From the NCBI GenBank assembly GCA_020725405.1, contig DYFB01000017.1, positions 1-59,996 on the forward strand: DNA of 59,996 nt, in the 5' to 3' direction. Positions 17,959-59,996 of this stretch are shown one piece after another (the first letter of the stretch is position 1; every line of letters begins with the position of its first letter). Position numbers and translations under genes: made by a program. The notes beneath the pieces were generated by a model. That model had not been told where the DNA came from. It worked only from the letters and a program-made list of their open reading frames with translations, and did not search any database. This DNA comes from Symbiobacterium sp. GTDB taxonomy: Bacteria; Bacillota; Sulfobacillia; UBA995; UBA9673.

Positions 17959-19110
17959 TCAGTAGTGCCTTACCACCACCTCCTTGCCCAGGGTCCGGAG
18001 GTGGGCAACGAGATCCTCGACCACCTGGTGCTTGATGGCGAGCTCCGGCGGGACGTCCGGACTCTGGTGGGCCGGGTTGATGGCCCGGCCGACGATGAGC
18101 TTCAGCCGGTCGGCCCGGAGGAGCAGGGCGCCGAGACGGCTCGCCCCGTCCCGGCGGCCCTCGAGGTCCCTCACCCTCCGCCCGGCCCTGAGGGTCTCGA
18201 GACACCGGTACAGGGTGAGGGTGCCCTCGGTCATGAGATCTATCCCCTCAAGGCGCCCGGTCGGGGGGACGCCGTCGTCCGGGAAATCGAGGTCGACCTG
18301 TATCTCCCGGCCGAGCTCCCGGGAAACAAGGTTCCCCGTCGTCCCGCCGCAGACGACCTTCCAGCCGGGTCCGTCCATGAGCTCGCCGGTCGCCGCCGCG
18401 TCGTCGCGGCGGTCACGGGGTGGGCCGATGAGGGCCGTCAGGAGGCGCGGGCGGCGGATACGCACGATCACAACCGTCGCGTCGTCGCCGGGACGGCCGG
18501 CGTAGAGCCTAGCGACGAGGGCGGCCGTCTCCCGGGCCATGTCGGCCGCGTCCAGCCCGGAGGCGGCGAGGCGGGCGAGATGGGAGCCGACCCTCTCCCA
18601 GCCCCATCCGAGGTTCCACACCCCGCCTATCCCCGCGTGGAGGACACCGTCGCTCACCAGAGCGACCCAGGTCCCGTCGGCCACCTCGAAGACGGTCTCC
18701 TTCACCGTCCGCCCGTGGATGTCGCGCTCGTGGCGCGCGATCTCGAGGAGGCCGTCCCCGCACCCGACGAAAGCCGGCGGGTTGTCGTACTCGGCGAGAT
18801 AGGCCCGGCCCGCGGGTGAGAGGTGGAGAAGGCTGAAGGTGCTGTAGGCCAGGTCGCGGACCCGGCAGACCGGCAACGTCTCGGAGAGGGCCTCGACCAC
18901 CGCCTCGAGCGGAAGCCCCTTCTCCAGCATCGATGTGGCGATGGTCACGGTGAGCGAGGAGAGGATGTTGGCCTTGACCCCGCTGCCGAGCCCGTCGGAC
19001 ACGGCGATGATGACCCCGCCCGGAATGTCGAGCCGGCGGACGCTGTCCCCGCAAAGCTCCTCTCCGTCCTTGTTCAGCTGAACCTGGGCGATGTCAAAGT
19101 GGAGAGCCAC
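17959..19110 (-). CDS. SpoIIE/PP2C-like serine phosphatase
   Basis: ELCGDSVRRLDIPGGVIIAVSDGLGSGVKANILSSLTV...TWVALVSDGVLHAG...GRPGDDATVVIVRIRRP. Confidence 0.85.
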   Translation of the reverse strand: MALHFDIAQVQLNKDGEELCGDSVRRLDIPGGVIIAVSDGLGSGVKANILSSLTVTIATSMLEKGLPLEAVVEALSETLPVCRVRDLAYSTFSLLHLSPAGRAYLAEYDNPPAFVGCGDGLLEIARHERDIHGRTVKETVFEVADGTWVALVSDGVLHAGIGGVWNLGWGWERVGSHLARLAASGLDAADMARETAALVARLYAGRPGDDATVVIVRIRRPRLLTALIGPPRDRRDDAAATGELMDGPGWKVVCGGTTGNLVSRELGREIQVDLDFPDDGVPPTGRLEGIDLMTEGTLTLYRCLETLRAGRRVRDLEGRRDGASRLGALLLRADRLKLIVGRAINPAHQSPDVPPELAIKHQVVEDLVAHLRTLGKEVVVRHY

Positions 19111-19146: not shown

Positions 19147-20985
19147 CTAGCCCTGCCCTCCGGTCGCCGCCCCCTCCTTCTGCATGAAGTCGATAAGCCT
19201 GGTGAGGATGACCTTGGTCTCGGCGGTCGTCTCCCCGAGGAGCCCGGCTATCTCCTGAGCGACCTTCATCTGCTTGGAGATGACCTCGCGGGCCCGCCCG
19301 ACGGTCTCGCTCCTCAGCTCCTCAAGCTGCTGGCGCTGGCTGGCCGCTGCCGTGTGGTCGATGAAGATGCCGACCACCGCATCGCGCTTCCCAAGGTGGA
19401 AGATGGTCTGCTGGGTGAGGAGCCCGCGGTCGGGGTAGGCCGCCTCGGTCTCGACCGTCGTCCGGTCCCGGAGGACCGCCCGGAACGTCGCATCGTCGAT
19501 GATCTCGCCGATGGGCCGGCCGGAAAGGTCCTCGTCGTGCCCCATTCGGAACATCGCTCGGAAGGCGCCGTTGGCGTCGAGGATTCTGAGGTCGCGGTCG
19601 ACCGCGACCACGCCGAAAGGCGACGAGGCGATCACGAGGTTGGAGACGGACTCGGCCATCTCGCGCATGTGGGGCATGCACATGTCCAGCTCGGCCATAC
19701 CCTGGTGGACGGCCACGGCCTTATCCCGGCAGGTCGCGTACCCGCAGACCCCGCAGTTAAGCTCGTCCTCCGGCCCGGTCTTACCGATGCGGGCCAGAAT
19801 CTCCCGTATCTCGGCCTCGGTGGGTCCCTCCCGGGGCGGACAGCGGTCGCGGTAGGTCCGGTGGAGGTCGGCGTCCGGGAGCTCCGGTCGGCCGGTGCCG
19901 GGCCCGGACCTTCCGGCCCGCTCTCTCCGGCGGGTCTCGACGAAGCCGAGGAGCCTCTGCCGCCGGACGGCCGGGCTCGTCCCGTCCTCCGGCATGGCCG
20001 GCCCGGCGACGCAGCCTCCCCGGCAGGCCAGCATCTCGACCAGGCGGATACCCTCGAGCCCGGACGCCCGAGAGTCCGGTGCGGCCGCGGACAGGGCGGC
20101 GAGGAGCTCCCGGCAGGACTCCATGCCGCTCACGGCGAGCCACCTACCTGAGAGCAGGTCGGTGGGAAGAGCGGCGGTGCGGAAGGCCCCGCCTTCCACC
20201 GGGAAGAGCGGGGCGACCTCCGGCCAGTAGCCGTCGAACTCGGACGGGTCCGCGCCGGGAAGGCCAAGACCCTCCTCGACGAGCCAGTCCGAGAGCTCCT
20301 CGAAGGTCAGGGCGGCGTCCACCGCCCCGGCCACCTCCGGCCGCTCGGCCTCGTCCTTCTTGGCCACGCACGGCCCGACGAAGACGACCCGGACCCCGGG
20401 CCTGGACCTCTTGAGGGCCCGGCCGTGGGCGATCATCGGCGAGACGACGGTCGAGGCGTACCTGACGGCCGCGGGGTAGGTGGTTTCCATGAGGTTGACG
20501 ACCACGGAGCACGACGTGGTGATGAGCGGCCGTGGGCCGCCCGGCGCGCCGTCCTCGTCCCCGAGCTCCCGCCGGAGAGCGAGCGAGACAAGCTCGGCTC
20601 CGACCGCCGTCTGCTCGACGGCGGCGAACCCGAGGGCTCGGAGAGCCCCCACCACCCGCAGGGGCTCATCGAGACCGAAAGCGGCGGCGAAGGACGGGGC
20701 CAGGCTGGCCACGACCGTCTCTCCGGCTTCGAGCCATTTCCGCACGCGGTGAGCGTCCGGCCGCACTTTCTTGGCCTTCTGGGGGCAGACCCGGAGGCAC
20801 TCACCATCGAGAATGCAGCGCTCCTTGACGACTTCCGCGTGGAGGGCCCGGCCGCCGGCCGTCGCCGTCTCGGGCCGGCTCTCGGCCAGCCGTATGCGGA
20901 TGGCCTTGACCGGGCAGGCCCGCACGCACTTGTAGCAGTCCTTGCATTTGGCCTCGATGGTGGTGATGATGGGCACAACCGCCAC
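19147..20985 (-). CDS. Sensory [FeFe]-hydrogenase-like protein: N-terminal 2x[4Fe-4S], H-cluster-like domain, 4Fe-4S domain, PAS domain
   Basis: CKDCYKCVRACPVKAI, CILDGECLRVCPQKA; TTSCSVVVNLMETTYP, VGPCVAKKDEAER, VEMLACRGGCVAGP (L1/L2/L3-like); NCGVCGYATCRDKAVAV; PAS SSPFGVVAVDRDLRILDANGAFRAMF. Confidence 0.88.
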   Translation of the reverse strand: MAVVPIITTIEAKCKDCYKCVRACPVKAIRIRLAESRPETATAGGRALHAEVVKERCILDGECLRVCPQKAKKVRPDAHRVRKWLEAGETVVASLAPSFAAAFGLDEPLRVVGALRALGFAAVEQTAVGAELVSLALRRELGDEDGAPGGPRPLITTSCSVVVNLMETTYPAAVRYASTVVSPMIAHGRALKRSRPGVRVVFVGPCVAKKDEAERPEVAGAVDAALTFEELSDWLVEEGLGLPGADPSEFDGYWPEVAPLFPVEGGAFRTAALPTDLLSGRWLAVSGMESCRELLAALSAAAPDSRASGLEGIRLVEMLACRGGCVAGPAMPEDGTSPAVRRQRLLGFVETRRRERAGRSGPGTGRPELPDADLHRTYRDRCPPREGPTEAEIREILARIGKTGPEDELNCGVCGYATCRDKAVAVHQGMAELDMCMPHMREMAESVSNLVIASSPFGVVAVDRDLRILDANGAFRAMFRMGHDEDLSGRPIGEIIDDATFRAVLRDRTTVETEAAYPDRGLLTQQTIFHLGKRDAVVGIFIDHTAAASQRQQLEELRSETVGRAREVISKQMKVAQEIAGLLGETTAETKVILTRLIDFMQKEGAATGGQG

Positions 20986-21693: not shown

Positions 21694-21800
21694 CGCCGGC
21701 GGCAGCCCTGCGGGACTGCGGCGACGGTGGGGTTGTCACGAACGCCCCAGGCTGGTAGAATGGGTAGCGGCAAGACCAAACCTAATAGCGGAAGTCAGCT

Positions 21801-21938
21801 TCCTTCGGGGCCGGGTGAGGGCGAGAGCCCAATTCCCGACCGGCGGTGATGCCCCTTCGGGGACGAGCCCGCGAACCTCAGGGCCGATCCGGTGAGACTC
21901 CGGAGCCGACAGTAAAGTCTGGATGGGAGAAGGAAGGC
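21801..21938 (+). promoter_or_regulatory. FMN riboswitch (RFN element)
   Basis: TCCTTCGGGGCCGGGTGAGGG...AATTCCCGACCGGCGGTGATG...AGCCCGCGA...GATCCGGTGAGACTCCGGAGCCGACAGTAAAGTCTGGATGGGAGAAGG. Confidence 0.96.
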
Positions 21939-21972
21939 CTGGACTCAGCTTGCTCATGGCCGTTTTTCTCTT

Positions 21973-22010
21973 GCGCGCTCCGAAGGTACCCTTCGGGGCG
22001 CGCTCTTTCT
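21973..22010 (+). terminator. Intrinsic terminator of the FMN riboswitch expression platform
   Basis: GCGCGCTCCGAAGG-TAC-CCTTCGGGGCGCGC followed by TCTTTCT. Confidence 0.85.
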
Positions 22011-22051
22011 GGGGGCTGACGGACGCGATACCAACGGGAGGAGCCAGTCAG

Positions 22052-22678
22052 ATGTCCACCGCGAACCACGCCAGCACTCCAGCCGTCGCCCCCGAGGCCG
22101 CCCGGCGCGGGGGAGCCCAGAGCGCCGTCGCCACCGCGCCGGCGAAACCGGGTAGTCGCACCCGAGCGCTCGTGCGCATCGGAATGCTCGGAGCCGTCGG
22201 CTTCGCCCTGATGTTCACGGAGTTCGCCATCCCGGGTTTCCCGACGTTCCTCCAGTACGACCCCGGTGACGTCCCGGCCCTCATCGGCGGCTTCGCCATG
22301 GGACCCGTGGCCGGGGCCGCCGTGGCCCTGGTAAAGGGTCTTCTCTTCCTCATATCGGGCAAGGACGAGGCCGGCTGGCTCGGGACGGCCGCGAACCTCG
22401 CCTGCAGCCTATCCCTCGTCGTCGCGGCCGCTGTCGTCTACGCGCGCGTCCGGACGCGGAAGGGGGCCCTGCTGGGCCTCGGCCTCGGCGTCGTCTCCAT
22501 GGTCGCCGTGATGAGTGTCCTCAACTATCTCGTCTTTCTCCCGGCCTACGGCCTCCCGCCCGCGGCCGTCCCGGACGCCGTCCGCATGACCATGGGCTTC
22601 AACCTGGTCAAGGGAGTCCTGACCGCCACCCTGACTTTCATCGTTTACAAGAGGGTGAGCCCGCTCCTGCGGAGCTAG
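22052..22678 (+). CDS. ribU: ECF transporter S component, riboflavin-type (RibU)
   Basis: ALVRIGMLGAVGFALMFTEFAIPGFPTFLQYDPGDVPALIGGFAMGPVAGAAVALVKGLLFLI...; directly downstream of the FMN riboswitch. Confidence 0.93.
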   Translation: MSTANHASTPAVAPEAARRGGAQSAVATAPAKPGSRTRALVRIGMLGAVGFALMFTEFAIPGFPTFLQYDPGDVPALIGGFAMGPVAGAAVALVKGLLFLISGKDEAGWLGTAANLACSLSLVVAAAVVYARVRTRKGALLGLGLGVVSMVAVMSVLNYLVFLPAYGLPPAAVPDAVRMTMGFNLVKGVLTATLTFIVYKRVSPLLRS

Positions 22679-22754: not shown

Positions 22755-24845
22755 CTAGGCGCCGGCCCCGGGCGGCGTCAGCGGGCCTCCCGTCCCGCCG
22801 CCCTCGCCCTCGCCGGGGTCGCGGGGCGGGAGGCCGAGCCGGTCCTCCTCTGACAGCTCGACCTCGACCCCGAGCTCCTCAGCCTTGGCCAGGAACTCGA
22901 GAACGGTGCTGATGACCTCGGCGTGCGACCAGGTCAGGGGAGCCACCGACAGGGGCTGGCCCGAGTAGGGGTGGAGCTGCTCGGGGAGGTGGCCGCCGGG
23001 CATGGCGTGGCTCCGGACCCACTCCAGGATGGAGAGGGCCACCTTGAGCTCGTCGGCCGTCCGCGCCTTGGCCGCATACCACCGCGCCACCCACAAGGTG
23101 CAGATGATCCAGGGGTTCCCGGGCACCCGCTCGACGTCGTCGCTCTTCTTGAAGTAGTAGTCGTTGGTGTAACGGGCCACTCCGCCCACGTCGGTGGACA
23201 CCCACAGGCGGTCCCGGACAAGCTGCATGGTCCGGACGACGCGCTCGTCGTCGGCGGGCAGGAGCCCGAAGAGGATGACCCCGAAGAGGCTGGCGTCGAG
23301 CGTGTAGTCGGGCGACAGGCCGGCCTCGGCGTTGACGTAAACCCCCCGGAGGAAGCGGCCGAGCTTCGAGTCGTACAGGTGTTCCAGGACCGCCTCCCTG
23401 ACCTCCTCTCCCGCCTCGCGCCAGCGCTTCGCGGCGGGGTCCCCGAAGAGCTCCCCGAAGTAGGCCGCAGCCAGGAGACCGGCGTAGGTCGCCGCGGCCG
23501 TATAGGTGAAGACGCCCTGCCGCTCTTCCCACAAGTCCCAGCTCGGACGGGGGAGCTTCGTCTCCGGGTCACGGTAGCCGGCCAGGAACTCCGCGGCCGG
23601 CTCCACCAGGGTCTGGTAGACGGAGTCGATGAACTCAACGTTGCGGTCGCACCGGAAGTGGTTGCCCAGGGCCCAGAGAACGCTCGCCGTCTCGTCCTCC
23701 TGGACAGGCAGGACGAACTCCGCCTTGGAGACCCACGGATGCCAGCTGGAGCCAACCGAGCCGTTGGGGTGATACTTGTGCCAGAGGAAGCCCTCCCGGC
23801 TAATCGCCCGCTCGCAGAAGCGGAAGAACCGCCGGGTGATGGCGTGGTACCCGGCGAGGTCGAGGGCGTAGGCGACCATGGCCCCGTCCCTCGGCCAGAC
23901 GTAGCTGTAATGGTCCCGGTTGTGGCGGAGGATGTCGGTGTCGTTGGCGGCCACGATGCCGCCCCTGTTATCGAGCTGGGTGCGGACCACGAGGACGCTC
24001 CTCTTGAAGAACGAGGCCAACTCGGGCGGAAGATGTCCGAGGCGCGCCTCCTCTCTCGACACCCAGCCGCGCCAGAAGGTTGCCGTTTCGGCGAGAAGCC
24101 GCTCGGGCCCGGCCGACAGGGCCAGGCCGTGGACAGCGCGGGCGCTGTCGAACCCTACTCCCGCGGCTATCCAGTAGTAGAGGGTCTCCGCCCCGCAGGG
24201 AGCGAGCTCGAGGTCGAACCCGATAGCGCTGTCAACCGACCCCTGGGAGATGAGATGCCCCTCGAGCTTCCCGTCCTCGGCGTCGCGCCAGGTCCCCTCC
24301 GCCCCGGCGAACCGCTTCCGGCCGGTGGAGAACTGGACGATGCCCCGCCCCGCGCCTTCCCCCGCCCCGGTTCCGACGCGACCGTCAATGATGAAGCAGC
24401 GGTTCCGCTTATAGTGGTAGATGGCCCGCAGGTCCGGGTCGAAGAGAGCCGTGTCTCCGATGTCCGACTCGTCGATGTTGAAGTCGTTGGCGAAGAAGAC
24501 CCTCACCGCCCGGGAGTCGGCCCGGAGGTTCTCGACCTTGACCTTCTTCATGTAGAGGTCGGAACGGTAGTGGACGGCGTCGTTCACCGTTAGGCGGAGG
24601 CCGACGGTCTCGTTCTCCGCGACGCAGTGGGTGACCAGGGTATCGGGGAGGAAGTCGAGGCTCTTGGACCAGCTCGGCTCGTCTATCCAGGTGAAGTGGC
24701 CGTCGGACCAGAACCCCATCATGTTCCGCCTGCCCTCGATCTGGTTCATCATCCCGACGTAGGGGTAGTAGAGGTCCCGCATCACGAGGTCGCCGTCAAG
24801 GTTGACGAGGAGGTTCCCGTTGCCCACGCTCAGTGGTCTCGGCAC
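22755..24845 (-). CDS. Glycoside hydrolase family 15-like (glucoamylase/trehalase-type)
   Basis: GNGNLLVNLDGDLVMRDLYYPYVGMMNQIEG...RDHYSYVWPRDGAMVAYALDLAGY...YTAAATYAGLLAAAYFGE...YFKKSDDVERVPGNPWIICTLWVARW. Confidence 0.9.
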   Translation of the reverse strand: MPRPLSVGNGNLLVNLDGDLVMRDLYYPYVGMMNQIEGRRNMMGFWSDGHFTWIDEPSWSKSLDFLPDTLVTHCVAENETVGLRLTVNDAVHYRSDLYMKKVKVENLRADSRAVRVFFANDFNIDESDIGDTALFDPDLRAIYHYKRNRCFIIDGRVGTGAGEGAGRGIVQFSTGRKRFAGAEGTWRDAEDGKLEGHLISQGSVDSAIGFDLELAPCGAETLYYWIAAGVGFDSARAVHGLALSAGPERLLAETATFWRGWVSREEARLGHLPPELASFFKRSVLVVRTQLDNRGGIVAANDTDILRHNRDHYSYVWPRDGAMVAYALDLAGYHAITRRFFRFCERAISREGFLWHKYHPNGSVGSSWHPWVSKAEFVLPVQEDETASVLWALGNHFRCDRNVEFIDSVYQTLVEPAAEFLAGYRDPETKLPRPSWDLWEERQGVFTYTAAATYAGLLAAAYFGELFGDPAAKRWREAGEEVREAVLEHLYDSKLGRFLRGVYVNAEAGLSPDYTLDASLFGVILFGLLPADDERVVRTMQLVRDRLWVSTDVGGVARYTNDYYFKKSDDVERVPGNPWIICTLWVARWYAAKARTADELKVALSILEWVRSHAMPGGHLPEQLHPYSGQPLSVAPLTWSHAEVISTVLEFLAKAEELGVEVELSEEDRLGLPPRDPGEGEGGGTGGPLTPPGAGA

Positions 24846-24910
24846 TGCGGACGACCTCCCCACGTGAGCTCCCGCTCGGACCTTCCGGGCCGGTCGGCCG
24901 CCCGGCCCGC

Positions 24911-24956
24911 CGGAAGACCTGTCCCCCGGAAGACCTGTCCCCCGGAAGACCCCTTA
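24911..24956. repeat. Tandem repeat, 16-bp unit (CGGAAGACCTGTCCCC), about 2.7 copies
   Basis: CGGAAGACC recurs at 16-bp spacing upstream of the GH15 gene. Confidence 0.9.
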
Positions 24957-25094
24957 GCAGTATAACGCGGGGGAGCGGAAGGTATTTTAGACTCGTGCCT
25001 TTGGACCGCTCCTCCGCCCCTCGGCAGGCCCCCGGACGACCTTCGGGTCGGCCGGTTTCGGCGGAGGTGCTCTACCTGCAGGGGGGCTAGACTC

Positions 25095-25832
25095 ATGAGT
25101 GGCTGGCTGCTCCTCGCGGCCATCCTGGCCGTCGCTGTCATCGGGTGGCTCGTCTACTCAACCTGGCGGACTCGCAGCGTGCGGCCCGCCCCGCGGCCCG
25201 AAGACCGCCCGGACCGGCCGGTCCGCGGGGTCGTGGCCGACGTGGAGTTCTCGAGCGAGACCTTCGTCCCGCCGGAGGTCGACTCCCTGGGCACCGAACC
25301 GGACCGGCCGACCGAGCCCGTCCCGCCCCGGCGTCCTCCCCTGGCCGTCCCCGGGTGGGAGCATCCTCTCCCGTGGTCGTACGGAGAGACCCGCCTCGTG
25401 GCCCTGGTCCGCGACCCGTACTGGCTCTTCGCCTACTGGGAGATAACCGGCGACGTCCACCGCGCGGCCGAGGAGAGAGTCGGCCGCGAGGCCTGGTTCC
25501 ACGCCCGCCCGGTCCTGAGGGTCCACGACGTCACCGGCGGCACCCACTACGACGTGGGGGTGGACGAGGAGGCCCGCAACTGGTATCTGAACGTCGGCCA
25601 GCCGGACCGCACCTGGTACCTGGAGCTCGGCCGGCTCACCGAGGCCGGCGAGTTCGTGATGCTGGCCCGGTCGAACCGGGTCCACACCCCGAGGGACATG
25701 CCCTCCGACGTCGTCGACCCCCGGTGGCCCCCGCTCCAGCGGACGGACGGGTTCTGGCCGGAGGGCATGCCCGGGTCGCCCGCTCCCGGCCTTCCGGGAA
25801 GCCCCGGCGCCCCGGGAAGCCGGTGGAGGTGA
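25095..25832 (+). CDS. DUF4912-type protein with N-terminal TM helix
   Basis: MSGWLLLAAILAVAVIGWLVYSTW...GETRLVALVRDPYWLFAYWEITGDVHRAAEE...VRVHDVTGG-type...GQPDRTWYLELGRLTEAGEFVMLARSNRVHTPRD. Confidence 0.85.
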   Translation: MSGWLLLAAILAVAVIGWLVYSTWRTRSVRPAPRPEDRPDRPVRGVVADVEFSSETFVPPEVDSLGTEPDRPTEPVPPRRPPLAVPGWEHPLPWSYGETRLVALVRDPYWLFAYWEITGDVHRAAEERVGREAWFHARPVLRVHDVTGGTHYDVGVDEEARNWYLNVGQPDRTWYLELGRLTEAGEFVMLARSNRVHTPRDMPSDVVDPRWPPLQRTDGFWPEGMPGSPAPGLPGSPGAPGSRWR

Positions 25833-25833
25833 G

Positions 25834-27501
25834 GTGACTGAAATGAGCGGCAGAGACCCGAAAGGCTACGTCGGACTCCTGCTCCACGCGCACCTCCCCT
25901 ACGTGCGCCATCCGGAACAGGACGGCATCCTCCCGGAGCGCTGGCTCTTCGAGGCCATCACCGAGTGCTACATCCCGCTCCTTCAGGTCTTCGAGAGGCT
26001 CACTCACGACGGGGTCCCGTTCCGCCTGGTCTTCTCGCTCACGCCGACCCTCCTCGCCATGTGGAACGACGAGCTCCTCCGCCGGCGCTATGAGCTGTAC
26101 CTCGACCGCATGCGCGAGCTCGCCGACCGGGAGGTCAGCCGGACCCGCCACGACCACCGCCTGGCCCCCGTGGCCCGGATGTACCGGGACCGTCTGAAGT
26201 GGGTCTCCGGTGTCTACGCCGACTCCTACCGGCGCGATCTCGTCGGGGCCTTCCGCCGCCTGGCCGAGGCCGGAACCGTCGAGCTGGCCACATCGGCGGC
26301 GACCCACGCTTTCCTCCCCCTGGTCGGGGCTCTACACCGCTCGGCAATCGAGGCCCAGGTCGAGTTCGGGCTGAGGCTCTTCCGGCGCCTCTTCGCCCGG
26401 GACCCGGCCGGGTTCTGGCTTCCGGAGTGCGGCTACCGGCCCGGGCTCGACCAGGTCCTCACGGAGAAGGGTCTTTCCTGGACCTGCCTCGAGGCCCACG
26501 GCGTCCTCTTCGCCTCGCCCAGGCCGCGCTACGGGGTCCACGCCCCCGTCGTCACCCCGGCGGGGGTGGCCGTCTTCGGGCGCGACCCGGAGAGCTCGAA
26601 GCAGGTCTGGTCGGGGAAAGAGGGCTACCCGGGGGACCCCTGGTACCGGGAGTACTACCGGGACATCGGCTACGACCTCGACGACTACGACTACCTCCGC
26701 CCCTTCCTCGCCCCCGACGGCTCGAGAACCCATACCGGTTTCAAGTACCACCGGGTCACCGGACCCGGCGACCACAAGGAGGTCTACGAGCCTGACCGGG
26801 CTTACGAGAGGGCGGACGTGCACGCCGGTCACTTCATGTGGGCGAGACAGAAGCAGGTGGAGTGGCTCGCGGGCCTCTTCGACCGGAGACCGTTCGTCCT
26901 GGCCCCGTACGACGCCGAGCTCTTCGGCCACTGGTGGTTCGAGGGACCGACGTTCCTCGAGCTCTTCCTCAGAAAGCAGGCCTACGACCAGAAGGACTTC
27001 CGCCTGGTCACGCCGACGGACTACCTCGCCGAGCACCCGGTGAACCAGCCGTCCCAGCCCATCGAGTCCAGCTGGGGCTGGAAGGGCTACAACGAGGTCT
27101 GGCTGCAGGGCCGGAACGACTGGATATACCGGCACCTGCACAAGGCCGCCGAGGTGATGGAAGGCCTCGTCGCCGGTTTCCCGGCACCCGGTCCCCTCGA
27201 GCTGCGGGCCCTGAACCAGGCGGCTAGAGAGCTCCTCCTGGCCCAGGCGAGCGACTGGCCTTTCATGATGCAGTCAGGGGGGATGGACGCCTACGCCCGC
27301 CACCGCTTCACCCATCACCTCGGGTGGTTCCTGGCTCTCGCCGGGCAGCTCCGGGAGGGCCGCATCGACGGGCGGTGGCTGGGCGAGCTCGAGCGGTCGG
27401 ACAACCTCTTCGGGGACCTCATCGACTACCGCGTCTTCGGCTACCGGGCCTGGCCGCCCGCCCCCCAGGCCCTCGTCCGCGCTCCAGCCGCCGGGCGCTA
27501 G
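25834..27501 (+). CDS. GH57-family 1,4-alpha-glucan branching enzyme-like protein
   Basis: GYVGLLLHAHLPYVRHPEQDGILPERWLFEAITECYIPLL...GFWLPECGYRPGLDQVL...YDAELFGHWWFEGP...ASDWPFMMQSGGMDAYARHRFTHHL. Confidence 0.93.
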   Translation: MTEMSGRDPKGYVGLLLHAHLPYVRHPEQDGILPERWLFEAITECYIPLLQVFERLTHDGVPFRLVFSLTPTLLAMWNDELLRRRYELYLDRMRELADREVSRTRHDHRLAPVARMYRDRLKWVSGVYADSYRRDLVGAFRRLAEAGTVELATSAATHAFLPLVGALHRSAIEAQVEFGLRLFRRLFARDPAGFWLPECGYRPGLDQVLTEKGLSWTCLEAHGVLFASPRPRYGVHAPVVTPAGVAVFGRDPESSKQVWSGKEGYPGDPWYREYYRDIGYDLDDYDYLRPFLAPDGSRTHTGFKYHRVTGPGDHKEVYEPDRAYERADVHAGHFMWARQKQVEWLAGLFDRRPFVLAPYDAELFGHWWFEGPTFLELFLRKQAYDQKDFRLVTPTDYLAEHPVNQPSQPIESSWGWKGYNEVWLQGRNDWIYRHLHKAAEVMEGLVAGFPAPGPLELRALNQAARELLLAQASDWPFMMQSGGMDAYARHRFTHHLGWFLALAGQLREGRIDGRWLGELERSDNLFGDLIDYRVFGYRAWPPAPQALVRAPAAGR

Positions 27502-46486: not shown

Positions 46487-49105
46487 CTACGTTTCCCTGC
46501 GAGAACGCACGAGCTCCTGCACCCGCCGCGTGTAGAGGCCGGCAAGCTCCTCGGCGAGTTCCATCGTGGGAGCCTCGGAGTAGACGTGGACGGCCGGGCG
46601 CTCGGGGTCGGGAAGGACGAGGACCCTCCCGTCCGGCGTCTCGGCCTGGAGCCCCTCCGCCGCTCCGCCGCCGGCGCCGGTGTCGGCGGCCCGGGCGCCG
46701 CCCCCGACCCGGGCGCCGCCCCCGGCTCGGGCACCGCCCCCAGCCCGGGCGCCGCCCCCGGCTCGGGCACCGCCCCCGGCTCGGGCCCGCTCGCGCCGGG
46801 CCCGCCCCGCCCCGCCTCCGCGTGCCCCGGCGTTCGGCGGACCGGGCGCCTCGAGGAGGAGGCGCATGACCCGGCCCTTGAGCTCCCAGGGGCAGGGCAC
46901 GCGAACGTGGACCCACTCGCCGAGGGGCGAGGCGTCGACCAGCTCGGCCAAGGTGCTGTCAATGTCGACAAGGTAGTCGAGGAGGCCCACCACGCCCAGG
47001 AGACCGCCGTAGACCATCTCCGACTGGTGGAAGAGGGCCGGGCCGGAGTCCCGCTCGACCTCACTCATGCGAGCCATGGTCTCCGCCCGGGTGGCCCGGC
47101 AGGGGACGGGTCTTCCGCCCAGGGCCGCGAGCCGCTCGGCCACCGCCCGCGGCAGGTCCGAGGGCACGACGAGCGGAGTCCCCTCCCGCACGAGAGCGGC
47201 CTCCGACAGGACGAGCCAGGCCTGGGCCTTGCTGAGAAGCCGCCCCTTGTTGTCGACGAGGGTCACGACCTCCCCCGTCTCGTTCGCGGCGAAGGCGAGG
47301 GCTGCTCCTTCCCGCCGGACGAGCTCGCCCACGGGCTCGGCCCGCAGCGGCGCGGAGAGGGGGATGTGCCCGACGTCGAGTCCCCGCCAGAGGCCGCGGG
47401 CGTTCTCTTCGAGCCAGGGGTGGCCGTAGGCCCCGGCGACGACGAGCCCCCGCCTGGCGAGCATCCGGCCCCGCTCCTCGACGTGGGCGAGGTAGGCTTC
47501 GCCGATGCCCGGGACGAACCGGGTAGCGCCGAGCCGGTCCGGGGGGGCCCGGCGGAAGTCCTCGCCGCCGAGGTCCTTTTCCAGACGCCGGACGGCCGCG
47601 CGGGGGATGTCGTTCCCCGCGGGGTCGAGAAGCCTGATGGCCACCTGGCCGTCCGTTTCCTCATCCGATCCGGCTCCGGGTCGTCCGATGTGGACGCCGG
47701 CTTCGGCCCCGAGGGCCCGCACGGCGTAGCGGACGGCTACGGCCGGAAGTTCGCCGACGTTCCAGACCGAGCACCCGGCGAGACCGAGGCCGGAAACCAG
47801 GGCCTCCCGGAGGAGCCGGGGAGCCGGGGCCGGGTCGACCCCCACGACAACCCGGGCCCCGGCGGCCTGGGCCGCGCCGAAGACACTCCCCACCCTCGCC
47901 GCCGTTTCGGCGCAGAGATCGACGTTGACCGTCCCCTTGACCCCCGCCTCGCTGAAGACGCCGTAGCCCCAGGCCTGGCCCCAGACCAGGCTGTCGCCGA
48001 GAACCGTCTCGGGGGCGACCCTCCGCCCGGGCCAGACCTTGACCCCGGGCTTGACCACCGTCTCCTCGCCGATGTCCACCTCGTCGGCGAGAACCGCCCC
48101 GTCGAAGACCGAGGCCCGGTTCTGGACCCTGACCCCGCGTCCGAGCACCGCCCCGCGGATCTCGGCCAGCCGCCCAACGCGGCAGTGGTCGCCGACGACC
48201 GACCGCTTCACGGACGCCTGACCGCCGATGACAACGCCTCGCCCCAGGACCGCCGGGCCCTCGACGCGGGCCCCGGTCCCGACGTAGGAATCCTCGCCGA
48301 CGAGCAGGGGGCCGGTGAGCTCCACCCCGGGAGCGATGTCCACGCCCGGGCCGACCCACACCCTTTCCCGGTACTCCGACCCGGCGACCTCGAACCTGGT
48401 CCGCCCCTCAAGCATGTCGATGTGGGCCTGAAGGTACTGCGAGTGGTTCCCGACGTCACACCAGTAGCCGCCCGGGGCGTACCCGAAGAGCGGCTTCCCG
48501 GCCTCGAGGAGCATCGGGAAGAGGTTCTGGCTGAAATCGAAGACCCGCCCGGCCTCGAAGAGGCCGAGGACCTCCGGTTCGAGGACGTAGATGCCCGCAT
48601 TGACCTGGTCGGAGAAGACCTCGCTCCAAGAAGGCTTCTCGACGAAACGGGCGATCCGACCGTCCTCCGAGCAGACGACGACCCCGTACTCGAGGGGTGT
48701 GTCCACGGCGGTGAGCCCGACAGTGGCCGCCGCCCCGCGGGCCCGATGGAAGTCGACGAGAGCGGTGACGTCCATGTCGGTCAGGATATCGCCGCTCACG
48801 ACCAGGAAGGTCCCGTCGAGCTCCGGCTCCACGCTCTTGACGCTCCCGGCGGTGCCGAGAGGCACGTCCTCGACGAAGTACCTCAGCCGGAGGCCGACCC
48901 GTGAGCCGTCGCCGAAGTAGTCCCGGACGACCTGGGGCAGGTGATGCAGAGTGACCAGGGCCTCCTCGACCCCGTGGCGGCTGAGGTGGCTGAGGACGTG
49001 CTCGAGGATGGGGCGGTTGCCGACAGGGACCATGGGCTTTGGGATGTTGCAGGTGAGGGGCCGGAGGCGGGTCCCCCAGCCTCCGGCCATGACCACGGCC
49101 TTCAA
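46487..49105 (-). CDS. Mannose-1-phosphate guanylyltransferase/sugar nucleotidyltransferase with LbH and phosphomannomutase-like domains
   Basis: MKAVVMAGGWGTRLRPLTCNIPKPMVPVGNRPILEHVL...DVGNHSQYLQAHIDMLEGR...hexapeptide repeats...PMM-like FAANETGEVVTLVDNKGRLLS...VVPSDLPRAVAERLA. Confidence 0.9.
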   Translation of the reverse strand: MKAVVMAGGWGTRLRPLTCNIPKPMVPVGNRPILEHVLSHLSRHGVEEALVTLHHLPQVVRDYFGDGSRVGLRLRYFVEDVPLGTAGSVKSVEPELDGTFLVVSGDILTDMDVTALVDFHRARGAAATVGLTAVDTPLEYGVVVCSEDGRIARFVEKPSWSEVFSDQVNAGIYVLEPEVLGLFEAGRVFDFSQNLFPMLLEAGKPLFGYAPGGYWCDVGNHSQYLQAHIDMLEGRTRFEVAGSEYRERVWVGPGVDIAPGVELTGPLLVGEDSYVGTGARVEGPAVLGRGVVIGGQASVKRSVVGDHCRVGRLAEIRGAVLGRGVRVQNRASVFDGAVLADEVDIGEETVVKPGVKVWPGRRVAPETVLGDSLVWGQAWGYGVFSEAGVKGTVNVDLCAETAARVGSVFGAAQAAGARVVVGVDPAPAPRLLREALVSGLGLAGCSVWNVGELPAVAVRYAVRALGAEAGVHIGRPGAGSDEETDGQVAIRLLDPAGNDIPRAAVRRLEKDLGGEDFRRAPPDRLGATRFVPGIGEAYLAHVEERGRMLARRGLVVAGAYGHPWLEENARGLWRGLDVGHIPLSAPLRAEPVGELVRREGAALAFAANETGEVVTLVDNKGRLLSKAQAWLVLSEAALVREGTPLVVPSDLPRAVAERLAALGGRPVPCRATRAETMARMSEVERDSGPALFHQSEMVYGGLLGVVGLLDYLVDIDSTLAELVDASPLGEWVHVRVPCPWELKGRVMRLLLEAPGPPNAGARGGGAGRARRERARAGGGARAGGGARAGGGARAGGGARVGGGARAADTGAGGGAAEGLQAETPDGRVLVLPDPERPAVHVYSEAPTMELAEELAGLYTRRVQELVRSRRET
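46690..46797. repeat. In-frame 18-bp tandem repeat encoding (GGGARA)n within the PMM-like domain, about 6 copies
   Basis: GGGCGCCGCCCCCGRCYC at 18-bp spacing; protein ERARAGGGARAGGGARAGGGARAGGGARVGGGARAAD. Confidence 0.95.
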
Positions 49106-49140
49106 GACGAAACACCCCCCCTGGCGGAAGGAGACGGGTC

Positions 49141-49187
49141 CCGGGCGACGGGCCCGCCGGGCGACGGGCCCGCCGGGCGACGGGCCC
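49141..49187. repeat. Tandem repeat, 16-bp unit (CCGGGCGACGGGCCCG), about 3 copies
   Basis: Units at 49141, 49157 and 49173; the last abuts the GT4 stop codon. Confidence 0.93.
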
Positions 49188-50578
49188 TAGGAGGGCGGGT
49201 TGTAGCGCCCGATCGGCTCGAGACCCCGGGTCATGACCCGCGTCCTCCGCCTCATCGCCTCCCAGTCTTCCCCGGGAGCGAGCGGGCCTTTCCCGGAAGA
49301 TTCCTCGTCCCCACCCCCGCCCGTCCAGCCGCTCGCCTGGGCCTCGCGGATGACCTCCTCGTAGACGGCCGCCGTCTCCAGGGCTACCGCTGACCAGGAG
49401 AACCTCTCCGTCACGGTCGAGCGGGCCCCGGCGCCCAGCCGGGCGGCGAGAGGCGGGTCACAGAGGAGCGACAGGATGGCCGAGGCGAGTTCGCCCGGGT
49501 CGGCCGGGGGCACTTTCAGCCCGGTGACGTTGTGGGCGACCGTCTCGGCCAGCCCCCCGGTGTCCGAGACAACGACCGGGCAGCCGGCGGCCATGGCTTC
49601 TAGGGCGGTCAGCCCGAAGGGCTCGTAGTAGCTCGGGACCACGGCCACCGAGGCCCAGTGGTAGAGGAGGTCCCGCGTCCGGTCGTCGAGGTAGCCGGTG
49701 AACCGGACGGCGTCCCCGAACCCCATCGCCGCCACCCGCCCTCTGAGGTGGCTCTCGTGCGGTCCGGTCCCCCCTATGACCAGGCGGGTCGCCGGACGGC
49801 GGTCGAGAACGGCCGGAAAGGCGTCGAGGAGCGTGTCCACCCCCTTTTCGCGGACGAGGCGGCCGACGAAGAAGACGATATCCTCTCCCGGCTGGGCGAA
49901 GTCGTGCCGCCGCGGCGAGGGGACACCCCTGGGGGCACCCTCTCCCTCTCCCCCGCCCTCGGCCTCCCTCACGGCCGCCTCGACCTCCGTGGGATCGACA
50001 CCGTTGGGGATGACGCGGATCTTGTCGCCCGGGAGCTGGAACTGACCGGCGAGCTCGGACTCCATGTAGCCGCTGCAGCAGATTACCCGCCAGGCCTCGT
50101 AGGTGAGCCACCACTCCACCTCGCTGATGTACCTCTGCCACGGGTTGTGGATGCCGTGGTGGCGTCCGGCCTCGGTGGCGTGGATGGTGGCCACCAGCGG
50201 CAAGCGGTAGGCGTGCTTGACCGCCCGGGCGGTGAAGGCCACGAGCCAGTCGTGGGCGTGGACGAGCTCGAACGGGCCGTCGAGTTCATCTCGCCGGACC
50301 TCGAGGCCCATGACCGTCTCAAGGAAGCTGTAGTTCAGCTGGTGCACCCAGTGCAGGAAGTCAGGCGAGGAGAGGGTGTAGGCGCTCCGGCGGTGGACCC
50401 GGAGAAGCCCCTCCCCCAGGGACACCTCCTCCGTCCCGGCCGCCTCGCGCGCCCCTTGGGTGACGACCTCGACGAGGTTCCCCCGGCGGGCGAGCTCGCG
50501 GGAGAGATGGTGGACGTGCCGCGCGAGACCCCCGACGTTGGCCGGCGGGTACTCCCAAGAAAGCATCAGTATCCTCAT
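49187..50578 (-). CDS. GT4-family glycosyltransferase, glycogen synthase-like
   Basis: MRILMLSWEYPPANVGGLARHVHHLSRELARRGNLVEVVTQ...VHAHDWLVAFTA...VIPNGVDP...VFFVGRLVREKGVDTLLDA...PSYYEPFGLTALEAMAAGCPVVVSDTGGLAE. Confidence 0.93.
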   Translation of the reverse strand: MRILMLSWEYPPANVGGLARHVHHLSRELARRGNLVEVVTQGAREAAGTEEVSLGEGLLRVHRRSAYTLSSPDFLHWVHQLNYSFLETVMGLEVRRDELDGPFELVHAHDWLVAFTARAVKHAYRLPLVATIHATEAGRHHGIHNPWQRYISEVEWWLTYEAWRVICCSGYMESELAGQFQLPGDKIRVIPNGVDPTEVEAAVREAEGGGEGEGAPRGVPSPRRHDFAQPGEDIVFFVGRLVREKGVDTLLDAFPAVLDRRPATRLVIGGTGPHESHLRGRVAAMGFGDAVRFTGYLDDRTRDLLYHWASVAVVPSYYEPFGLTALEAMAAGCPVVVSDTGGLAETVAHNVTGLKVPPADPGELASAILSLLCDPPLAARLGAGARSTVTERFSWSAVALETAAVYEEVIREAQASGWTGGGGDEESSGKGPLAPGEDWEAMRRRTRVMTRGLEPIGRYNPPS

Positions 50579-50582
50579 CTTC

Positions 50583-52787
<2,205 letters not shown>

Positions 52788-55604: not shown

Positions 55605-56726
55605 ATGAGGATCGCCTACGACGCCCACCCGCTCATCAGTCAAAGCCAGCGGGGCATCGGCAAGACCACGCGGCGGCTCCTCGAGGAATACGCCCGCCGG
55701 GAGAGCCCCTTCGACATCTGCTACTACCTTCCAGGAGACGCCTGGCCCCACCCCCCGGAATGGACCGGCGTGACGCCCCGATTCCTCGCGCCCGGTGAGT
55801 CCCTGCCGTCCGCCGCCGCACGTGACGGCGCCGCCCTCGTTCACATCACGGACTACTTCTTCCCCCTCTACCACCCCTCCGAGCTCGCCGCGCACCCCGA
55901 GCGACCGTTCCGGCTCGTCGTTACGGTGCGTGACATCATCCCCCTCCACCTCCCGCGCGAAAAGAGGAGCGGTCTGGTCCGCCTGCAGCGGTACCTGTTC
56001 CCGCTCCTCGAAGCCGCCGACGGGGTCATCACCATCTCTTCGGCCACCAAGGCCGACCTGGTGAAGCACCTGGGCGTCAGCGAAGGAAAGATCGACGTGG
56101 TCCACCACGGAGTGGACCACGAGGTCTTCCACGATCGCTACCGCCCCGAGGAAGTCGCGGAAGCAAAACGCCGCTACGGCCTTCCGTACCGCTACATCGT
56201 CTACGTGTCCGCCTTCGATCCCAGGAAGAACCACGTCTTGCTCCTCAACGCCTACCACCGGCTCCTCCGTCTGAGCCGCCACCGGTGCGGACTTGTCCTC
56301 GTGGGCCCAGGCCGCCTGCCCGTCGAACTGGGCCAGATCATCGGGAAGCTGCGACTCCGCGAGCGGGTGACCATCCTGAGCGACCTCCCGGAGCGGGATC
56401 TCGCGCTTGTCTACCGCGGTGCGGCTCTCTCGGCCTTCCCTTCCCTCTACGAAGGCTTCGGCAACCCGCTCGTCGAGGCGATGGCCTGCGGCACGCCCAC
56501 GGTGGCCCTGGCCCGGTCCTCCGTGCCCGAGGTGGCCGCCGACGGAGCGCTCCTAGTGGAGCGCGGCGATGACGGAGCCTTCGCCAGGGCAATGGCCAGC
56601 GTCCTCGAGGATCCCGATCTGGCGAGCGACCTGGCCGAGAAGGGGAGGCGACGGGCGTCCGACTTCACCTGGTCGGCGACGGCCCGTGAAACCCTGGCCG
56701 TTTGCGACCGGGTCCTGCGGGGTTGA
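55605..56726 (+). CDS. GT4-family glycosyltransferase
   Basis: MRIAYDAHPLISQSQRGIGKTTRRLLEEYA...VVTVRDIIPLHLPREKRSG...DGVITISSATKADLVKHLGVSEGKIDVVHHGVDHEVF...YEGFGNPLVEAMACGTPTVALARSSVPEVAADGALLVERGD. Confidence 0.93.
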   Translation: MRIAYDAHPLISQSQRGIGKTTRRLLEEYARRESPFDICYYLPGDAWPHPPEWTGVTPRFLAPGESLPSAAARDGAALVHITDYFFPLYHPSELAAHPERPFRLVVTVRDIIPLHLPREKRSGLVRLQRYLFPLLEAADGVITISSATKADLVKHLGVSEGKIDVVHHGVDHEVFHDRYRPEEVAEAKRRYGLPYRYIVYVSAFDPRKNHVLLLNAYHRLLRLSRHRCGLVLVGPGRLPVELGQIIGKLRLRERVTILSDLPERDLALVYRGAALSAFPSLYEGFGNPLVEAMACGTPTVALARSSVPEVAADGALLVERGDDGAFARAMASVLEDPDLASDLAEKGRRRASDFTWSATARETLAVCDRVLRG

Positions 56727-57967
56727 CCCAAACCGGCGGGCCCGTCGAGGCGGAGCACAACCGCGCCCTGATCCCATACCTGCCAGGGGTCGGCGATAAC
56801 GGCCCCTGGAGATACGAGCCGGGTCAGCTCATGCCACGGCAGAGTGCGGTATTCGCGGTGCGGAACGGTGACGAAGACTTCGGAAGCCCCCTTGAGGACC
56901 CCCTCGAGGTCGTCCGTCGCCCCCGCGGCGCGGACTCGCGGGTCGTGCGCCGCGGGAGCGCAACCGCGCAGCCGAAGGAGTTCAACCAGCTTCACCCCGA
57001 GCGAGCTGCGGCAGTCGTCCGAGTCGGCCTTGAAGGCCAGCCCGAGGACGACCGGATTACGCATGGGACCCAGCCGTTCGACCTGCTGGATGAAGTACTC
57101 GGGGAGGCCCTCGTTCACCTTCCACGCCGCGAGAAGGAGGTCACCTCCGGCAAGTGGTTGGCCTAGGGCGAAAGCATCCTTGAACAGACAGGGTCCGGCG
57201 GCGTAGCCCGGGTCGGGAATCCTACCCCGGCGGTAGCCGTGGTTCGCCGCCCGGATGGCCTCGTGACCGAAAGCCCCCAGGGTTGTGGCTATCATCAGGA
57301 ACTCGTTGCTGAGGGCGAAGTTCACGTACCGGTGGGCGTTGTTGAACAGCTTCGCCAGCTCGGCCTCCACGATCCCGGTATGGACGAGCTCGACTCCCAG
57401 CGCCCGGAAGACGCCGGCGGCCGCCTCGGCGGACCGCGGGTCGTCAGCCCCGATTATCTGGGGCAGCTCGAAGATCTCGTGGGAGGCCCCCTCGAGGGTC
57501 CGCTCGGGGCAGTAGGAGATGAGGAATTCCTTGCCCGGAGTCAGGCCCCATCGGCGCTCAGCCATGCGCACGAGGCCGACCGTACTGCCGGGAACCACGG
57601 TGCTCCGGACGATGACAAGCGGCGGCCTCGACCCGGCCGCAGCCCGCCGGCCCAGAAGGCGGGCCGCGACCTCTGAGAGGGCCGTCTGCTCCAGAACCAG
57701 CCTGTCGTTCAAAGGAGTGCCCAGAGCGATGATGAACGTGTCGCATTCCTCGATGGCCCGGTCAAGGTCCCCGGTCATTGTGAAGGTCCGGCCGACGGTC
57801 GCCTCCAGGAGGGCAGCCGCCGATTCGTCCTGGAAGGGCAGCCGTCTCTCGGCGACGGCCTCCCTGACCCCCACGTCGGTGTCGACGCCGAGGACACGCT
57901 GACCCCGCGCGGCAAGACCCAACCCGCGGGGCAGCCCGACCCGCCCGCACCCGACCACGGCGATCAT
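56447..57967 (-). CDS. Nucleotide-sugar dehydrogenase (UDP-glucose/ManNAc dehydrogenase family); last about 93 codons antisense to the GT4 gene
   Basis: MIAVVGCGRVGLPRGLGLAARGQRVLGVDTD...FIIALGTPL...VIVRSTVVPGSTVGLV...CPERTLEGA...ELAKLFNNAHRYVNFALSNEF...DPGYAAGPCLFKDAFAL...VLGLAFKADSDDCRSS. C-terminal tail after about residue 413 is low complexity. Confidence 0.88.
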   Translation of the reverse strand: MIAVVGCGRVGLPRGLGLAARGQRVLGVDTDVGVREAVAERRLPFQDESAAALLEATVGRTFTMTGDLDRAIEECDTFIIALGTPLNDRLVLEQTALSEVAARLLGRRAAAGSRPPLVIVRSTVVPGSTVGLVRMAERRWGLTPGKEFLISYCPERTLEGASHEIFELPQIIGADDPRSAEAAAGVFRALGVELVHTGIVEAELAKLFNNAHRYVNFALSNEFLMIATTLGAFGHEAIRAANHGYRRGRIPDPGYAAGPCLFKDAFALGQPLAGGDLLLAAWKVNEGLPEYFIQQVERLGPMRNPVVLGLAFKADSDDCRSSLGVKLVELLRLRGCAPAAHDPRVRAAGATDDLEGVLKGASEVFVTVPHREYRTLPWHELTRLVSPGAVIADPWQVWDQGAVVLRLDGPAGLGQPRRTRSQTARVSRAVADQVKSDARRLPFSARSLARSGSSRTLAIALAKAPSSPRSTRSAPSAATSGTEDRARATVGVPQAIASTSGLPKPS

Positions 57968-58986
57968 GGCGCTCCCTCCCGCGGAAGCCGAAGCCTCAGA
58001 GAGGCGGGCTTGGAAAGCTCCACCGTGACGGCCCGGACCATGTTCCGTTCAAAGAGACTCTCTCGTTCGGCGGCGCCGGGGTATCCGTACCGCTCCCTGG
58101 CCTCAGCCATGAAGAGGTGTGGGAAGAGGAGATCAACGGCCAGGAGCTCGAGATCTTCAGGGGCCAGGTCGCGTTCCCGGCGGTAGGCACCGAGGAGCTC
58201 CCCGGCCAGTCTCTCGTCCCAGGAGCCGAGGTGGATGAAGACCCGGTTCAGGAGCTTGCGAAGGTCTCGCACGGGGAGGTCGACGGCGATCCTGTCCAGG
58301 TCGAAGACCACCGGCCCGCTTTCGGTTACGACCATGTTTGAGGGGGCGAAATCCTGGTGGCAGAACCCCGATTCCTCACGCCAGCGCCGACAGCCGTCAG
58401 GATATGGGAGACCGTCGAGCCGCCGGCGCGCCGTCTCGGCACGCCCCAGCAACACGGGTAGCGCGTCCAGGAAGACCCGGTCGGCGGGACGGTCTCTCCG
58501 CCTCGCGGCGGCGGCGAAGGTGCTGGCGCGGCTGATCCGCTCTTCGTATTGGACCGGCCAGGCTCCGAGGTAGTCTCGCGGGTTGGAGTCAGCGGGGGCG
58601 CGGAACCCATGCGAGGCGGCGTGGAACCGCCCCGCGGTCGAGAAGGCCAGGCGGAGGTCGCTAGACCGGCTGAGACTCGGGCGCCGGCCGTCCACCCACC
58701 TGTAAAGGGTATATCGCACCTCGTCGCCGTCGACAAAGGGCAGCCGTGTGCGAGTCCGCCGGAGGGCCGGCACCAGGCCCGAACCGTGGAGATGCTCGTG
58801 AGCGGCGGCAAGGAAACGCACCCGCCGCGGTGGGACAGCCAGCTCCTTCAGCGCATAGCCACCCTCGGAGGTGGTGACCTCCCAGACGGCCCGCTTGCGC
58901 TTCCGGGTGACCCGCCGCAACCCAATGACGGCCACACCGTATTCGGCCAGGGCCCTCATCGGACCCGCATCGGCCGGAGCGGCCAT
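57964..58986 (-). CDS. CotS-like spore coat kinase-fold protein (aminoglycoside phosphotransferase fold)
   Basis: VTRKRKRAVWEVTTSEGGYALKELAVPPRRVRFLAAAHEHL...YTLYRWVDGRRP...FCHQDFAPSNMVVTESGPVVFDLDRIAVDLPVRDLRKLLNR. Overlaps the dehydrogenase start (ATGA). Confidence 0.82.
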   Translation of the reverse strand: MAAPADAGPMRALAEYGVAVIGLRRVTRKRKRAVWEVTTSEGGYALKELAVPPRRVRFLAAAHEHLHGSGLVPALRRTRTRLPFVDGDEVRYTLYRWVDGRRPSLSRSSDLRLAFSTAGRFHAASHGFRAPADSNPRDYLGAWPVQYEERISRASTFAAAARRRDRPADRVFLDALPVLLGRAETARRRLDGLPYPDGCRRWREESGFCHQDFAPSNMVVTESGPVVFDLDRIAVDLPVRDLRKLLNRVFIHLGSWDERLAGELLGAYRRERDLAPEDLELLAVDLLFPHLFMAEARERYGYPGAAERESLFERNMVRAVTVELSKPASLRLRLPREGAP

Positions 58987-59146: not shown

Positions 59147-59156
59147 CATAGGATTA
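59147..59156 (+). promoter_or_regulatory. Possible sporulation sigma (SigK/SigE-like) -10: CATAGGATTA
   Basis: CATA-NNN-TT form, with an AC dinucleotide about 15 nt upstream (GGCACTT), about 11 nt before SD AAAGGAGGT. Confidence 0.25.
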
Positions 59157-59182
59157 TGTAGCAACGAAAGGAGGTAAGGCCT

Positions 59183-59533
59183 ATGGGAAAGGACCCGGGC
59201 TCCGAGCAGCAGTCCAACAGCCAGGCGCAGGCCGGAGCCGCATCCCAGCTGGTGGTGAACATCTTCTTCGTCTCCGCCAACGATCGGGAGTGGATCGTCA
59301 AACCCATCGGGTTCTACTACAACCGTTCGGAGAGGCCGCTCACCGGCGGCGGAACCGAGCCGAGGCCCGAGGTCGATGTTAAGCTCGAAGCTGAGAGGGA
59401 TACCAACGCTCAGGGCCAGGGGCTGGCCATCGTCAACGACCTCAGCTTCCTGGACATCCTCAGCCAGGCCATAAGGGCCAGCTCGGAAGACCCTGACATC
59501 CGCGCGGCGCTGAACCCGAAGGAAGACGAGTGA
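59183..59533 (+). CDS. Small protein, family unrecognised; paralog of the next gene (acidic member)
   Basis: SD AAAGGAGGTAAGGCCTATG. MGKDPGSEQQSNSQAQAGAASQLVVNIFFVSANDREWIVKPIGFYYN...EVDVKLEAERDTNAQGQGLAIVNDLSF... Confidence 0.8.
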   Translation: MGKDPGSEQQSNSQAQAGAASQLVVNIFFVSANDREWIVKPIGFYYNRSERPLTGGGTEPRPEVDVKLEAERDTNAQGQGLAIVNDLSFLDILSQAIRASSEDPDIRAALNPKEDE

Positions 59534-59548
59534 GAGGAGGTGAGGCTC

Positions 59549-59800
59549 GTGGGCGGCGGCAACCAGGTTAATTCGCAGTCGCAGTGCGGCACCGCGGCCT
59601 TCAACTACGGATACGGAACCGGGCTGGACCAGCAGGGAGGCTGGTCCGCCAATGACGGTGTCGAATTCGAGGCGATCAAGAAGAAGGTTAAAGTCAAGGT
59701 CAAGGCCAAGGACGATAGCAACGCCCAGGGTCAGGGGCAGATCGTCCAGGCGGACTTCAACATCCCTTTCCTGGTCACCTACGACGACAAGGTGGAGTAG
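59549..59800 (+). CDS. Small protein, family unrecognised; paralog of the previous gene (basic member)
   Basis: SD GGAGGTGAGGCTCGTG, same spacing as the previous gene. MGGGNQVNSQSQCGTAAFNYGYGTGLDQQGGWSANDGVEFEAIKKKVKVKVKAKDDSNAQGQGQIVQADFNIPFLVTYDDKVE. Confidence 0.78.
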   Translation: MGGGNQVNSQSQCGTAAFNYGYGTGLDQQGGWSANDGVEFEAIKKKVKVKVKAKDDSNAQGQGQIVQADFNIPFLVTYDDKVE

Positions 59801-59814
59801 GAGAGGAGCCTCGT

Positions 59815-59856
59815 CCGCGGGCGGTGGGGGTGCGGGCGCGCCCCCACCGCCCGCGG
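59815..59856 (+). terminator. Strong 16-bp GC hairpin after the small-protein pair
   Basis: CCGCGGGCGGTGGGGG-TGCGGGCGCG-CCCCCACCGCCCGCGG then CTCTTC; no long T-tract. Confidence 0.75.
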
Positions 59857-59965
59857 CTCTTCAGGTCCGAACCAGCCTCCTCGCTCACAGGGCACGCTCC
59901 GCCTCACGGGGATTCCGCAGGACCGTCCTGGTGGTATCGGGGGTCACCGGCCAGTTTTTGCAGGC

Positions 59966-59996
<31 letters not shown>

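Follow-up and report, generated by a model that had tools for sequence, protein, structure and literature searches.

A tandem pair of small NxQxQ proteins divergent from a cotS-like gene in Symbiobacterium sp.: an orphan family with a plausible spore-surface role

Described spore-surface systems and the locus

The crust proteins CotX and CotV are small, contain Q and N residues, carry no signal peptide and polymerise at the spore surface. The two proteins studied here, P1 and P2 (Table 1), resemble them in small size, in Q/N content and in having no apparent signal peptide (both sequences were inspected by eye, and no membrane segment was apparent either); membership was rejected, because Pfam's spore coat X/V domain matched neither. 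In Firmicutes, small beta-rich spore-surface subunits of the S-ENA (DUF3992) and F-ENA (DUF4183) kinds form fibres (PMC11952670). We rejected assignment to S-ENA (no CC motif in P1, P2 or their one homologue, from the genome SURF_36, and no DUF3992 match) and to F-ENA (no M-P-(I/V)-(I/V)-x-P hook and no DUF4183 match). For the gene neighbourhood, the described counterpart is the CotS/YtaA-CotSA-YtcABC cluster, a known type of spore-surface polysaccharide cluster; in Bacillus subtilis the transcription of cotS/ytaA depends on sigmaK and GerE (PMC2860764). Our locus is like this cluster in its kinds of neighbouring gene (kinase, GT4 glycosyltransferase and nucleotide-sugar dehydrogenase) and unlike it in that Table II of the cluster's description (PMC2860764) lists no small NxQxQ proteins, and in that the SURF_36 homologue of the pair lies outside any such cluster. 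Searches of Pfam, NCBIfam and PHROGs returned no family match for P1 or P2, and a search of the PDB returned only matches with E > 0.8, to alginate lyases, which bears out the view of the first-pass annotation that neither protein belongs to a named family.

The window (the whole stretch of DNA analyzed, 59,996 nucleotides, G+C approximately 71%) is one entire contig from a 2.23 Mb genome in 97 contigs. P1 and P2 sit at its right end, divergent from a CotS-family kinase gene and near polysaccharide genes, an arrangement that had been proposed from the letters and that the profile matches in Table 1 confirm. These three genes are given as context for the pair, and the ugd-like open reading frame is possibly over-extended in its 3' part. 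Because the contig terminates 196 bases past the P2 stop, additional genes may exist 3' of P2. The final 28 letters (59969-59996) are all C; this run is probably not genomic but an artefact of sequencing or assembly (poly-G dark cycles). The genome encodes a full-length SpoIVA (790 bits in a profile search), so the host is a spore former.

Table 1. Coordinates of the pair, its signals and the neighbouring genes in the window
Feature	Coordinates	Strand	Evidence and remarks
GT4 glycosyltransferase	55605..56726	+	PF00534; context
Nucleotide-sugar dehydrogenase, ugd-like	56447..57967	-	TIGR03026, 241 bits (cut-off 189.8); context
CotS-family spore kinase gene	57964..58986	-	TIGR02906, 205 bits (cut-off 172.7); divergent from P1; context
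CATAGGAT, sigmaE/sigmaK -10-like box	59147..59154	+	-36 from P1 start
P1 Shine-Dalgarno, GGAGGT	59170..59175	+	Read directly; 7 nt ahead of ATG
P1, 116 aa	59183..59533	+	ORF list, codon-position GC
P1 first NxQxQ motif, NSQAQ	59216..59230	+	DNA pattern, motif scan
P1 second NxQxQ motif, NAQGQ	59405..59419	+	Pattern, motif scan
P2 Shine-Dalgarno, GGAGGT	59536..59541	+	Read directly; 7 nt ahead of GTG
P2, 83 aa, GTG start	59549..59800	+	ORF list, codon-position GC
P2 first NxQxQ motif, NSQSQ	59570..59584	+	DNA pattern, motif scan
P2 second NxQxQ motif, NAQGQ	59720..59734	+	Pattern, motif scan
Hairpin, G+C, very stable	59803..59862	+	Folding; 3' of P2

Two tandem genes with a doubled motif

P1 and P2 are real genes, because their GC contents by codon position (0.63/0.42/0.85 for P1 and 0.60/0.35/0.84 for P2) are typical of genuine genes in this genome. 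We place the start of P2 at GTG 59549, because the spacing of its Shine-Dalgarno sequence points there and the program-called start, 59540, overlaps that site. With this start the two genes have the equal Shine-Dalgarno architecture first read from the sequence. Only 15 nt separate the P1 stop from the P2 start, and the two are therefore probably carried on a single transcript. The strong hairpin reported to follow the pair was recovered on folding (-58.3 kcal/mol for an 83-nt stretch, z -5); no T run follows it, so that it does not qualify as a canonical intrinsic terminator. Both full-length proteins are acidic (pI 4.5 for P1 and 4.9 for P2), and P1 contains no Cys.

The claim that the two are small tandem paralogs stood up to shuffling. 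The score of a gapped local alignment over the two shared blocks is 64, the mean for shuffled sequences being 26 (z 8.3), and none of 5000 shuffles equalled it; BLASTP of one against the other gives E 0.007, over 16 aligned residues only. The two are thus tandem paralogs, and their similarity is not due to chance. Scanned for NSQxQxG with a DNA pattern, the whole 2.23 Mb genome gave exactly two hits, at the N-termini of P1 and P2. The N-terminal and second shared blocks also resemble each other, as both hold N[SA]Q[SAG]Q, which appears twice per protein (at residues 12 and 75 in P1, 63 residues apart, and at 8 and 58 in P2, 50 apart); two N.Q.Q motifs are found in 0.02-0.1% of shuffled copies. 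The second-block pattern, which was fitted to the P1 and P2 sequences, has two occurrences in the window and none in shuffles. The features by which we define the family are a pair of N[SA]Q[SAG]Q motifs, spaced by 50-63 residues, and a [VI]x[VIL]xA strand whose end lies five residues ahead of the second motif; P1, P2 and the SURF_36 protein have them all.

One homologue in the same family-level lineage

A BLAST search of 154 genomes from the class yielded a single homologue, of P2 (E 8.8e-9, 47% identity, from the same family-level lineage), and none of P1. The host is the metagenome-assembled genome "Bacillota bacterium SURF_36" (81% complete; contig QZJP01000101.1, 24,364 bp). Its protein carries NSQSQ and NSQAQ motifs, a basic strand (KKIKIEVKA) and the same QIVQADFN end as P2, and over 68 codons its alignment gives dN 0.47 and dS 1.05 (NG86), and is thus constrained (dN < dS). 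The gene is solitary, lying between a GNAT gene and panB and not at cotS, and neither BLAST nor a profile built on all three proteins detected a P1-like partner in this genome. Compared by itself with the homologue, P1 shows marginal similarity (equalled in 262 of 5000 shuffles), and its similarity to P2 is strong, so that P1 may have arisen by local duplication.

Across eight genomes of the order, the three-protein profile matched exactly P1, P2 and the SURF_36 protein, and three genomes of the order that are more than 90% complete and have SpoIVA above cut-off (G147, G150 and G151) are without the family. A two-member profile returned nothing convincing from 399 genomes of the phylum, and a loose DNA pattern run over 85,462 species returned the SURF_36 copy and otherwise unrelated matches, mostly to one Bradyrhizobium protein; we rejected these last as chance (apparently a single large protein and its homologues, probably the exonuclease VII large subunit). 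A back-translation search of genome contigs found nothing even though the SURF_36 copy is in the collection, its tblastn confirmation step missing a homologue at 47% identity, and the negatives from this search, on genome and viral contigs alike, accordingly carry little weight. A phage or plasmid origin was rejected, the tblastn and viral-contig scans being empty. The family is thus real, small and, as far as seen, lineage-restricted, with the tandem pair so far unique to the Symbiobacterium sp. genome.

A possible spore-surface role and its competitors

At -40 from its own start, and in a locus unrelated to that of P1, the SURF_36 homologue has CATATCCT, which shares the core CATANNNT with the box upstream of P1; CATATACT lies upstream of the spoIVA gene of the same lineage. 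A -10 of this type is common to sigmaE and sigmaK, the -35 being ATA for the former and AC for the latter (PMC3789822; reference for -35/-10 spacing, PMC517825). No sigmaE ATA stands at the proper distance upstream of the boxes of P1 and the homologue, and an AC of the sigmaK kind stands 15 and 17 bases ahead of them, at spacings that differ. The box is a short consensus chosen post hoc (it was sought in P1 first, then in the homologue). Counting both strands, 192 kb of lineage DNA contain CATANNNT 25 times, and shuffled upstream regions carry one in the same interval about 2.5% of the time. What was found for a putative mother-cell promoter is therefore a consensus match at -36 and -40 with an unconvincing -35, which we regard as suggestive.

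The pair's adjacency to cotS, GT4 and ugd genes, for which conservation in spore formers had been put forward as a check, is not conserved. SURF_36 keeps its cotS-ugd adjacency (L046 8193-10546) without the small protein pair, and no NSQ protein flanks the cotS homologues of the class (loci L115-L124 and L097); for this reason little can be concluded from the neighbourhood alone about what P1 and P2 do. At L115, L116, L117, L119 and L120, from genomes of the class, at least two CotS-family genes neighbour each other, and Symbiobacterium sp. and SURF_36 show one each.

The explanation we favor, tentatively and at a little short of an even chance, is that P1 and P2 are small structural proteins of the spore coat or crust whose genes are expressed in the mother cell, under sigmaE or sigmaK. 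Both are tandem duplicates within an orphan family seen so far in a single family-level lineage of uncultured Bacillota that form spores; they would be synthesized during sporulation and incorporated into the coat or crust. The two NxQxQ segments of each protein would form short beta-strands that place the Asn and two Gln on one face, where their side chains could stack between neighboring subunits, and the alternating V/K (or V/D/E) strand beside them would be the exposed face; such stacking is plausible, and the timing, location and assembly are what we infer. Speaking for a spore-surface role, as the first-pass annotation had it, are the significant paralogy and motif, the constraint on the homologue, the full-length SpoIVA of the host, the divergent cotS gene with its ugd and glycosyltransferase companions, the box common to two unrelated loci, and the apparent lack of a signal peptide or membrane segment, as in coat proteins assembled from the mother cell. 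Speaking against it are the unconserved cotS adjacency, the post hoc choice of the box, the unconfident AlphaFold2 models and the SpoIVA-bearing genomes of the order that are without the family. The spore-forming host, the neighbourhood and the shared box fit such a role, and the expected conservation of the cotS adjacency was not borne out. An orphan family with a plausible spore-surface role is how we read the observation as a whole.

The same unconserved adjacency, together with the homologue's position between GNAT and panB genes with no spore genes adjoining, would also fit a small cytoplasmic family, perhaps of regulatory or stress proteins, that has nothing to do with spores and lies beside cotS by chance, and the weakness of the promoter-like box as evidence adds to this. 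We consider it unlikely, though a serious competitor: CATANNNT is common to two unrelated loci, and a composition rich in beta-strand and Q/N, for which no globular fold is predicted, suits structural proteins better.

The segments before the shared turn do differ in charge, as had been noticed (acidic or mixed in P1, strongly basic in P2): EVDVKLEAERDT in P1 has a charge of -3 and KKKVKVKVKAKDDS in P2, with its strand KKKVKVKVKAK, has +5. These opposite charges, and tandem genes with a strong Shine-Dalgarno sequence on each, are what suggest that P1 and P2 form a heteromeric spore fibre in which acidic beta-strands of the one complement basic beta-strands of the other. That proposal was not upheld and we judge it improbable, because the basic-strand protein of SURF_36 has no detectable partner in its 81% complete genome, P1 and P2 are both acidic overall, and the acidic stretch NDGVEFEAI directly precedes P2's own basic strand, so that the charges could pair within P2 itself. 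Nor is an interface supported by any model: AlphaFold2, run on shallow alignments, gave pLDDT 46 and 42 for the two proteins and no confident model. The fuller version, in which P1 and P2 are subunits of a novel heteromeric spore-surface polymer, with stacked NxQxQ beta-strands and charge-complementary faces, invented within this lineage, we hold to be quite improbable.

Gamma-type SASP are likewise short and Q/N-rich, in spore-forming hosts, and have TNAQ and GQGQ words that look superficially similar. A gamma-SASP-like store of amino acids in the spore core, suggested by the short, N/Q/G/A-rich composition of the pair, is nevertheless very unlikely, and membership was rejected: there is no Pfam SASP match even at E 10 and no GPR-type (T/G)EF(A/V)SE site, the V/K alternation is not SASP-like, and the -10-like box is mother-cell-like, whereas SASP genes belong to the forespore. 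That tandem small paralogs adjoin an APH-fold enzyme might suggest RiPP or bacteriocin precursors modified by that kinase-like protein, but this is scarcely credible, as the enzyme belongs to the CotS family of spore kinases, the neighbours examined included no recognizable modification or export genes, the SURF_36 homologue is solitary, and the proteins are conserved in blocks at both ends and not in a leader.

The favored reading, that of small coat or crust components, matters because knowledge of spore coats in uncultured Bacillota is nearly nil and coat proteins outpace homology detection. The doubled, searchable motif with its sigmaE/sigmaK-like box would offer a handle on a lineage-specific coat component and, if the family were shown to polymerise, on a new spore-surface material.

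Elsewhere in the window, an FMN riboswitch (RF00050, 100 bits, 21797-21938) lies directly upstream of a + strand open reading frame at approximately 21923-22678. The match of the protein encoded at 17959-19110 to SpoIIE is confined to the C-terminal phosphatase region (41.8 bits, a long way under the cut-off); this protein adjoins a [FeFe]-hydrogenase-like protein at 19147-20985. Two glycogen/alpha-glucan gene groups (22755-27501 and 46487-52787) include genes for 1,4-alpha-glucan branching enzyme-like, oligosaccharide amylase-like, debranching enzyme and glycogen-synthase-like GT4 proteins, as well as a sugar nucleotidyltransferase fused to a phosphomutase-like domain.
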